64,000 nucleotides of DNA from Cyanobacteriota bacterium. GTDB taxonomy: Bacteria > Cyanobacteriota > Cyanobacteriia > Cyanobacteriales > Microcoleaceae. A model generated the notes under the pieces. The model did no database searches. It had not been told where the DNA came from and saw nothing but the letters and a program-made list of their open reading frames with translations. The stretch covers positions 1 through 64,000 of the forward strand of contig JANYGO010000332.1 in NCBI GenBank assembly GCA_025362325.1. Reading direction: 5' to 3'. This document shows positions 7,540-54,929 of the stretch, piece after piece (position 1 is the first letter of the stretch; the number at the start of each line of letters is the position of its first letter). The position numbers and the translations under genes were made by a program.

Positions 7540-8895
7540 GGACTTACCAAAAAAATGGGGTAGTGCCCCGCACTTCAGGGCGGCTTGTTAATCGATAGTA
7601 GCATCTCAAGGCATTCTTATATTAGGTGTGCTACTTACTATAAGAACAGGAGGAAATACCATGCTAGTTCTTGAGTTCAAAACCTACGGCAAAGCGTTTC
7701 AGTTCGTTGCAGTAGACGAGGCGATTCGGATAACTCAGTTCATTCGGAACAAATCGATCAGGCTGTGGATGGATGGCAACGCTAAGTCTTGGTTGGAGAT
7801 GTCTCGGAACTGTGCTGTTCTGGCAAAAGAGTTTGACTTTGCAAATAGATTAAATTCTATGGCAAGGCAGGCTAGTGCAGAACGGGCATGGGCTGCAATA
7901 ACTCGGTTCTACGAAAATTGCCAGAAAAAGACTCTCAAGAAGAAAGGTTTCCCTAAATTCCAGAAAGATTGTCGCTCTGTAGAGTACAAAAGCTCTGGGT
8001 GGAAACTGGCATGCGACCGAAAATCAATCACCTTCACCGATAAATGTGGGATAGGCAAACTCAAGCTGAAAGGGACTCGCACTCTGCTGTTCTATAGCTT
8101 AGACCAAGTAAAACGGGTTCGACTGGTCAAGAGAGCTGATGGTGTCTATGTTCAGTTTAGTATTTCCGTAGACCGCTCTGAATCTATCCCCGCAACTGGT
8201 AATGCTATTGGGTTAGATGTGGGTTTGAAAGAATTCTATACCGATTCAAACGGTGAAACAGCAATCAATCCCCGATTCCTGTGCACAGGTGAATTGGGAT
8301 TAAAGAAGGCCCAAAAGCGCGTATCAAAGCGGGTTAAGGGTTCAAACAATCGTCGCAAAGCACGGGTGGTTCTGGGTAAGAGGCATCTCAAAATAAGTAG
8401 GCAACGTAAAGACCACGCTGTCAAGTTAGCGCGGTGCGTAATCACATCAAACGATGTAGTGGCTTATGAAGATTTGAGAGTGCGAAATATGGTAAAGAAT
8501 CACTGCCTTGCGAAATCGATTAACGACGCATCTTGGTATCAGTTCCGTGTTTGGCTGGAATATTTCGGCAAGGTGTTTGGGAAAATCACCATTGCCGTAA
8601 ATCCAGCTTATACGAGCCAAGAATGCTCTAACTGTGGGACTGTGGTGAAAAAGACTCTATCCACCCGTACCCATGCTTGTCAGTGTGGATGCGTCCTAGA
8701 TAGAGATCACAATGCAGCTAGAATTATCCTCAGTCGAGGATTAAGTACGACGGGGCACGTCGGAACTTTTGGACGAGATCCAATAAACGTTTGGGGAGTT
8801 GAGACCGCTACTGAGGTTGGTGCAAACCTATCTCAGCAAGTCACGACGCGGAACCAAGAATCCCTGCGCCTAAAGGCCGGGGAGTGTCAAGCATT
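7540..8895 (+). mobile_element. IS200/IS605-type element encoding only TnpB (no TnpA); ends approximate
   Basis: tnpB with hairpin-forming flanks (GCCCCGCACTTCAGGGC upstream; CCCTGCGCCTAAAGGCCGGGGAG at the 3' end). Confidence 0.7.
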
Positions 8896-53224: not shown

Positions 53225-53499
53225 CTGCTGAATCAACTGTCACTTTAAAAAAGTGTCAGGATGTAAACACTTTTGAGCTGTTCATATCACAATTATTTAT
53301 TAAAATGTTTTTCTTAATTATATCTTTATTTTTTAACGTAAACTCGACAGTGGGGGAGTTGACAACCATCAAGGATTGGGGTGAAAGATTAAAGTTTTTT
53401 GAAGTTTAGCAAAAATCCTGCAATCTTTTGTAATATAAACAGGAAAGTTGAAAAATATCTAAAGACAAACTAATTAGATAAAAGAGTCGCTAAGGTAGT

Positions 53500-53898
53500 A
53501 AGTGTCAGGAACCCCAGCCTAAAGGCATGAGGCTTGTTAGAGAAATTTAGTAAGCTATTCTGACCAGACCCCTAGCAATAGGAGCCGATATGTAGGTCAA
53601 GACACCGGGCGGATGCGTGCCAGTCCCCTGCTCTGTCGTTACCCGCCCGACCAGTTTTAAGGTCACTGAAACAGTGCGTGTAACCGAACAAGCCCATATA
53701 TCTCGGTCGAGGCAAACATTACCCCGTAAGGGAGGCTCCATCGCGAGCAAAATACTATGCGTACAGGATTGGAACATTTGAAGCGGTAATTGTCCCGTTG
53801 AAAGTGCAATACAAAAGTACCCCGAATTGACCGATCCCAAGTTGCTTAGTAAATTCAAAAATGCAAAGCCGTCCTAGAAGGACGGGGTTTCAAACCCA
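53500..53898 (+). ncRNA. HEARO-type (IscB omega) RNA, stand-alone, with terminal IS200/IS605-like hairpin
   Basis: 'gtcaggaaccccaGCCTaaaGGCatgaggcttgttagagaaatttagtaagctattctgaccagaccCCTAgcaaTAGGagccgatatgtaggtcaagacaccgggcggatgcg...acccgcccg...CACTGaaaCAGTG...' and terminal CCGTCCTagAAGGACGG; no iscB ORF adjacent. Confidence 0.75.
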
Positions 53899-54014
53899 TA
53901 ATTTTGATGACAACTTGTCCGATAAAAAAGTGTTAAGCTCGGCTAAGCTCAGCCAAAACAAAACCGCAATATTTAATTAAGCTCGATTCGATAACAAAGG
54001 CTAAGGTAAAGTTC

Positions 54015-54929
54015 ATGGCAAACTCAGTTTTAAATCAGCCAAACGCAGCAGCAGGAGTGCAGTGGCAGCCAAAAGATATTATCCGCGGCCTAGTGTGGAA
54101 AATTGCGATCGCAACCTGGCTGTTGATGGCTGTAGGCAGCGCTACGCGGGTAATGAACGCGGGCCTCGCTTGCCCGGACTGGCCGCTGTGCTACGGTCAA
54201 TTAATACCCACAGCACAGATGAATTTGCAGGTGTTTCTGGAGTGGTTTCACCGTTTGGATGCAGCAGCAATTGGCTTAAGCGCGATCGCCCTTTTAGGAC
54301 TTTCTGTGTTCTACCGCAGCCGCCTGCCTTCATGGGTGCCGTTTGCCAGTGCTGGGGCAGTATTTTTAATAGTTTTTCAAGGCGTATTGGGCGGATTGAC
54401 TGTAACACAACTGCTCAGATTTGACATCGTTACCGCTCATTTGGGAACCGCTTTACTGTTTTTTTGCGCCCTGCTAGCGATCGGTTTTATGCTGAGTCCC
54501 TACGAAGCTACAGGCAATACAGGCAAATTAGCATGGGTAAGTTCGATCGCAGCACTGCTAGTTTACCTGCAAAGTCTGCTAGGAGCATTAGTCGCCTCCA
54601 GATGGGCGCTGCATCAATGTTTGGGATCGTCAGAATTGTGTTCGGTAATGAACAGCCATATCGCTGGTATCGTACCAGCTACCGCAGCAACTTTAGCAGT
54701 AGCAGTAATGGCTTGGCGACAACCAGCACTAAGTTCAAACTTGCGAAAATTAGGGAATTGGGCGAGTGTTTGTCTGATTGCTCAATTAGTTTTGGGATTG
54801 GCAACTTTCCGGCTGCACCTTCAGGTAGAACCGCTGACAGTCGCCCACCAAGCAGTCGGCGCAGCGTTGCTGGGAACTCTGGTAGCGTTTAGCATTTTAG
54901 CGTGGCGCGATCGAGTTTTATCAGCTTGA
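54015..54929 (+). CDS. ctaA: Heme A synthase (COX15/CtaA)
   Basis: 'GSATRVMNAGLACPDWPLCYGQLIP...EWFHRLDAAAIG...TAHLGTALL...VAHQAVGAALLG'. Confidence 0.93.
   Translation: MANSVLNQPNAAAGVQWQPKDIIRGLVWKIAIATWLLMAVGSATRVMNAGLACPDWPLCYGQLIPTAQMNLQVFLEWFHRLDAAAIGLSAIALLGLSVFYRSRLPSWVPFASAGAVFLIVFQGVLGGLTVTQLLRFDIVTAHLGTALLFFCALLAIGFMLSPYEATGNTGKLAWVSSIAALLVYLQSLLGALVASRWALHQCLGSSELCSVMNSHIAGIVPATAATLAVAVMAWRQPALSSNLRKLGNWASVCLIAQLVLGLATFRLHLQVEPLTVAHQAVGAALLGTLVAFSILAWRDRVLSA

Follow-up and report, generated by a model that had tools for sequence, protein, structure and literature searches.

What is the guide RNA of IscB, a Cas9-like RNA-guided nuclease, doing upstream of a host gene when no nuclease gene follows it? 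The question is raised by a locus near ctaA, a gene for cytochrome-oxidase assembly, in a 64,000-nucleotide (nt) stretch of DNA from a cyanobacterium of the Microcoleaceae (contig JANYGO010000332.1 of assembly GCA_025362325.1; this whole stretch is called the window). A preliminary description had recognised here a stand-alone HEARO, the omega RNA of IscB, at 53480-53910. Running cmscan over the whole window, we found that the Rfam model RF02033 (HEARO) matches the + strand at 53504-53722 over its full length (model positions 1-211 of 211; 110 bits, E 8.7e-22). With a gathering cut-off of 83 bits, it is the sole family above cut-off in the 64-kb window. No RRXRR gene lies in the window either, as the two RRXRR matches of the assembly are on other contigs. 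The covariance match is thus present and iscB is absent in cis, as had been proposed. Since the nuclease gene is missing in cis, any nuclease partner would act in trans. We consider it fairly probable that the insert is a non-autonomous IS200/IS605-type element of RNA and DNA ends, consisting of the omega RNA, a structured RNA module (M) and an end hairpin, which is both mobilised and used in trans.

The bounds of the insert follow from an empty site. Searching the region 53280-54110 against 30 related genomes, we found its two flanks directly joined in same-genus genomes, and the join in G001 (L023) is gap-free (...gtaagt followed directly by atgac...), which places a 403-bp insert at 53504-53906, 5' of ATGA and with no target duplication. 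The insertion near ctaA had therefore been described correctly, but its bounds had not. The presumed guide, which by analogy with IscB omega RNAs would be the last 16-20 nt of the left flank (the 16 nt are CGCTAAGGTAGTAAGT), ends at 53503, about 6-7 nt 3' of its earlier placement, and the suggested CGGGCGG...CCCGCCCG pairing differs from the pairing in the alignment to the HEARO model. A rejoined site would hold the guide and ATGA; a second target of the guide in its own genome was looked for, but guide plus ATGA does not recur in the assembly when up to 3 mismatches are allowed. G011, whose ctaA site is empty (L047), has a copy with 92% identity at another location (L020), and therefore the element has moved. 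Near-identical copies occupy different sites, and most same-genus genomes have an empty ctaA site.

The ends obey the pairing rule of IS200/IS605 transposons. In IS608, the cleavage sites CL (TTAC) and CR (TCAA) pair with the guides GL (AAAG) and GR (GAAT) that lie 5' of the end hairpins, and A+16 pairs with T-3 and A+17 with T-4 (PMC5934647). The rule derived from it (G1-C2 and G2-C1 pair, A stands opposite A, G4-C4 pair) was applied to the - strand of the element. From the target TCAT it predicts GL GAAA, which immediately precedes the foot of the hairpin in 71 of 72 elements, and from the end TGAC it predicts GR CAAG, present in 100 of 105 copies; the window element has both. Among the elements starting with GTAA (TTAC), AAAG was present in five of eight, compared with 10% for a random tetramer. 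Guide and cleavage site thus pair at both ends, the short target is fixed, and the terminal CCGTCCT/AGGACGG hairpin already described lies at 53869-53885. Because its ends follow this rule, the insert is a non-autonomous, omega-RNA-only IS200/IS605 element. Its 403 bp hold no gene, and thus no tnpA, and Y1 transposase genes were found on other contigs only. An isrB element (C94) and a tnpA+tnpB element (C268) of the same genome share its end hairpin, and the Y1 transposase of C268 is intact, which makes some TnpA supplied in trans plausible. The element resembles known non-autonomous IS200/IS605 elements (of the type of miniature inverted-repeat or palindrome-associated transposable elements) in its hairpin ends with guide/cleavage pairs, its many copies and its lack of a transposase and of a target duplication. 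Theirs, however, enclose empty sequence, whereas its interior consists of two conserved RNA domains. The right-end hairpin at 53857-53906 (the left end in the TnpA frame of Table 1) also matches Microcystis phages such as LMM01 and MaMV-DC with 91-93% identity over 42-47 bases, a sign of IS200/IS605-type elements in these phages.

The second RNA domain, M, which the preliminary description had not recognised as a separate conserved structure, is about 120 nt long and occupies the place of iscB, with the omega RNA on its 5' side and the end hairpin on its 3' side. It folds into a small hairpin (GCTC/GAGC, 53735-53748) followed by a junction with three inner helices, is about 75-92% conserved in many elements and is combined with either of two right ends. 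Aligning 65 distinct copies, we obtained a consensus of 29 pairs, 18 of which show double compensatory changes. Across this alignment 96.9% of the cells pair, against 26.6-40.3% with slid partners, and all five measures of pairing exceed those of all 500 shuffles. On the + strand, G-U types outnumber A-C types by about 158 to 32 in our own tally, one fixed U-G pair excluded, which points to M acting as a + strand RNA and not as the transposed DNA strand. No Rfam 15 family matches M or the few bases before it (53723-53852, + strand) at E-values up to 5, and the only non-HEARO family over the element was a chance-level match on the - strand. M was also considered as a remnant of the C-terminus of tnpB, iscB or isrB and rejected, as stops break the frames and the changes follow the base pairs. 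A short frame in M (ATG CGT ACA GG) was likewise rejected as coding, with premature stops in several copies.

Searching with R1, the covariance model of M, we found M in 45 genomes (22 genera) out of a sample of 245 from the order and in 26 out of 386 from the phylum, all 26 within the same order. An exact-pattern scan of about 85,000 species genomes returned 77 stretches, all in cyanobacterial records, which include Microcoleus, Tychonema, Nostoc, Tolypothrix, Calothrix, Anabaena, Dolichospermum, Lyngbya and Kamptonema. One related element lies unannotated on a plasmid of Dolichospermum sp. UHCC 0315A (NZ_CP043057.1, 42014-42359), 154 bp before a peptidylprolyl isomerase gene; its identity of 75% over 84% of the query takes in the omega RNA and the greater part of M. 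Among 20 loci from other genera, 17 have a HEARO that ends 7-9 nt 5' of M. Where tested, M always stood behind an orphan omega RNA. None of the iscB or isrB loci tested has M, including C94, which has the same right end, and M as a part of cis iscB elements was rejected on this ground. M follows IscB-type omega RNAs as well as weakly matching, probably IsrB-type ones (L107-L114, L197-L203, L206, L208, L212 and L220; 30-34 bits in four of eight), which resemble the isrB-linked RNA of C94, so that M is not bound to one type of omega RNA. In a tree of 111 omega RNAs, those with iscB, with M and other orphans are intermixed, and the branches with good support require M to have changed at least 10 times. 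It therefore behaves like a cassette, repeatedly taking the place of iscB. These results also modify the earlier idea of an iscB-deleted mini-element: a mini-element without iscB it is, but a simple deletion does not account for M in the place of iscB or for a right end of the isrB/IS605 group (C94, C268). Simple internal deletion of iscB is a better fit for another orphan of the genome, C66, whose right end is still that of iscB elements.

Such orphans are common. Seven HEARO matches stand against two RRXRR genes in the assembly (6.37 Mb in 396 contigs, 95% complete), and five of the HEAROs are orphans (C66, C40, C202, C145 and C160, the one in the window). Across 30 same-genus genomes there are 439 HEARO against 144 RRXRR matches, fragments included, and 114 among the 150 HEAROs listed have no RRXRR within 600 bp downstream, some of them perhaps lying at contig ends. 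Using a reference structure derived solely from iscB-linked RNAs, we found 93.5% of the pairs kept in orphans with M and 95.8% in other orphans, while slid controls were about 35-41% paired; compensatory changes occur at 28 and 23 pairs, respectively. Several orphans without M (L002, L004 and L006, corresponding to C66, C40 and C145, and also L049-L051) have a different 3' module of tandem small hairpins with the loop CAACCAT (e.g. GGAGACAACCATGTCTCC). These are similar to the hairpin that surrounds the start codon of iscB (e.g. AGACGCAACCATGTCT in L082 and L093), as if kept or copied from there. As to a nuclease, the search for iscB proposed earlier identified an intact gene on another contig (C375), encoding a 425-aa IscB with RRXRR and HNH domains (NF040563, 454 bits) and accompanied by a cis omega RNA; C94 carries a 345-aa IsrB-like gene without the HNH domain. 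Of the features of an IscB OMEGA (obligate mobile element-guided activity) system, the genome thus has an intact IscB (RuvC and HNH), while the window RNA lacks an iscB directly downstream. The readings first given to this locus, an orphan guide acting in trans or a mini-element lacking iscB, fit the covariance match, the absence of iscB in cis, the empty ctaA site in related genomes and the IscB elsewhere. That interpretation is supported; its activity in trans is something we infer.

Relatives are mostly inserted exactly at start codons. Counting each right flank of an M element once (61 distinct flanks), we found that the ATG of ATGA opens a frame of at least 50 codons in 46, whereas elsewhere in these loci 22% of the ATGA do so (P about 2e-18, the flanks being partly dependent). 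The starts so occupied (e.g. in L174-L251) apparently include those of psbA and gatB. With the element inserted 5' of a start codon, the guide, the omega RNA and M become part of the host gene's leader and can be transcribed from a host promoter. The element has no means of starting this transcript by itself, because the guide lies outside it.

Table 1. Features of the inserted element and its surroundings (positions in the window)
Feature	Position	Strand	Basis
Entire inserted element, 403 bp, no target duplication	53504..53906	+	gap-free empty site in G001 (L023), other same-genus empty sites
Presumed guide, final 16-20 nt of left flank	53484..53503	+	analogy with IscB omega RNAs; boundary from empty site
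Omega RNA scaffold (HEARO)	53504..53722	+	RF02033, 110 bits
Module M, ~120-nt structured RNA in place of iscB	53730..53852	+	model R1, 110 bits, E 2e-24; covariation
Transposon right end, TnpA frame: cleavage TGAC 53504-53507, hairpin 53512-53532, guide CAAG 53533-53536	53504..53536	-	IS608 pairing rule
Transposon left end, TnpA frame: hairpin 53869-53885, guide GAAA 53888-53891, end 53906	53869..53906	-	end rule
Target motif ATGA (TCAT on transposed strand), presumed target-adjacent motif	53907..53910	+	empty-site alignment, end rule
ctaA (COX15/CtaA), host gene downstream	54015..54929	+	PF02628, 108 bits
UbiA-family gene, next after ctaA	55042-56079		PF01040, 254 bits

The element ends 108 bp before ctaA, presumably in its leader. 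The non-coding DNA on both sides of the insertion (53280-53503 and 53907-54014; GCTAAGGTAGTAA; AGTGTTAAGCTCGGCTAAGCTC) is strongly conserved across the genus, and these flanks upstream of ctaA may be regulatory. Elsewhere in the window, a tnpB-type match (PF07282) was found at 8534-8728 in a 441-aa open frame.

How might such an element work? A Y1 transposase acting in trans would carry the element, in single-stranded form, to positions 5' of ATGA, which are often start codons. From an upstream promoter of the host, the flank would then be transcribed as the guide, followed by the omega RNA and M, within the 5' leader of the host gene. IscB supplied in trans would bind the omega RNA and cut copies of the site that lack the element, and repair from the filled copy would restore the element at the cut. 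This is the retention model of work on TnpB and IscB. M would stabilise the 3' side of the omega RNA or separate the omega RNA from the downstream message. More tentatively, and with slightly more doubt than belief, we propose that cyanobacteria have in M a functional RNA domain, so far undescribed, through which omega RNAs can spread and work although their nuclease gene is absent, the whole forming a two-domain trans-acting guide RNA that serves as a host 5' leader and has been swapped for iscB many times.

Several points weigh against this scheme. The window copy lies away from start codons, its ATG opening just nine codons, 108 bp before ctaA, and no promoter-like site above background was found upstream near the element. 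The role given to M is a first guess. The cis omega RNA of the IscB in C375 belongs to a different clade from the window RNA, which makes their compatibility uncertain. In favour of the scheme, that IscB shares 90% identity with the IscB of G036 (L091), and the omega RNA in cis to the latter groups with the window RNA in one large clade; IscB proteins therefore seem able to accept diverse omega RNAs.

Some of these points would also suit a dead remnant, a HEARO element that has lost iscB and is carried along as an untranscribed and unused passenger. The absence of iscB in cis and the position of the window copy away from a start codon agree with this, and HEARO RNAs detected by RNA-seq in Limnospira were set aside as remnants (PMC8400943). 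Against it, the orphan omega RNAs and M both keep their pairing with many compensatory changes, which is hard to reconcile with orphans being dead as a class, and near-identical copies at different sites indicate recent movement. We regard this explanation as unlikely, though the single window copy may still be inactive. The inserted RNA could instead act mainly in cis on ctaA or other host genes, for instance through M, with guide use secondary. Its presumed place in the ctaA leader, the relatives exactly at start codons and the position of M between omega RNA and gene would all be in keeping with such a device. Yet copies are scattered 5' of unrelated genes, the ctaA site is empty in most same-genus genomes, and the preference for start codons is also expected from the ATGA target combined with selection against insertions within genes, so that we find a leader device distinctly improbable. 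M might also work as single-stranded DNA during transposition, as IS200/IS605 elements move as hairpin-bearing single strands and M is internal to one. This we consider very improbable: TnpA transposes the - strand, for which the opposite of the observed G-U excess is expected, and the isrB element with the same right end carries no M.

The reading as a mobile element used in trans can be placed among known systems. In its full-length match, conserved fold, guide 5' of the scaffold and adjoining ATGA, the window RNA is like the IscB omega RNAs of RF02033; unlike them, it is followed 3' by M instead of iscB. Standalone omega RNAs able to work with IscB have been reported (Altae-Tran 2021, cited in PMC9581776), and as far as the account in PMC9581776 describes them they likewise lack a nuclease gene in cis and are thought to work with IscB in trans. 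The window RNA is set apart by lying within a mapped mobile element; that a second structured RNA accompanies it there may be a further difference. The orphan omega RNA is thus of an already known kind, and M belongs to no Rfam 15 family. A 343-nt HEARO construct of Limnospira maxima (PMC12286853) matches in length HEARO and M together, which span 344 nt in L262, whereas the 211 positions of the Rfam model stop before M. Judging from this match in length, earlier constructs may contain M, unrecognised as a module.

M would be a new RNA family. More generally, orphan omega RNAs illustrate how guides can part from their RNA-guided nuclease and become genetic units of their own. The same separation was also needed on the way from IscB to CRISPR-Cas9, with its many guides for a single nuclease. 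A conserved RNA that replaces iscB, combined with insertion at start codons, where host promoters would make the guide, provides a testable system for trans-acting omega RNAs.
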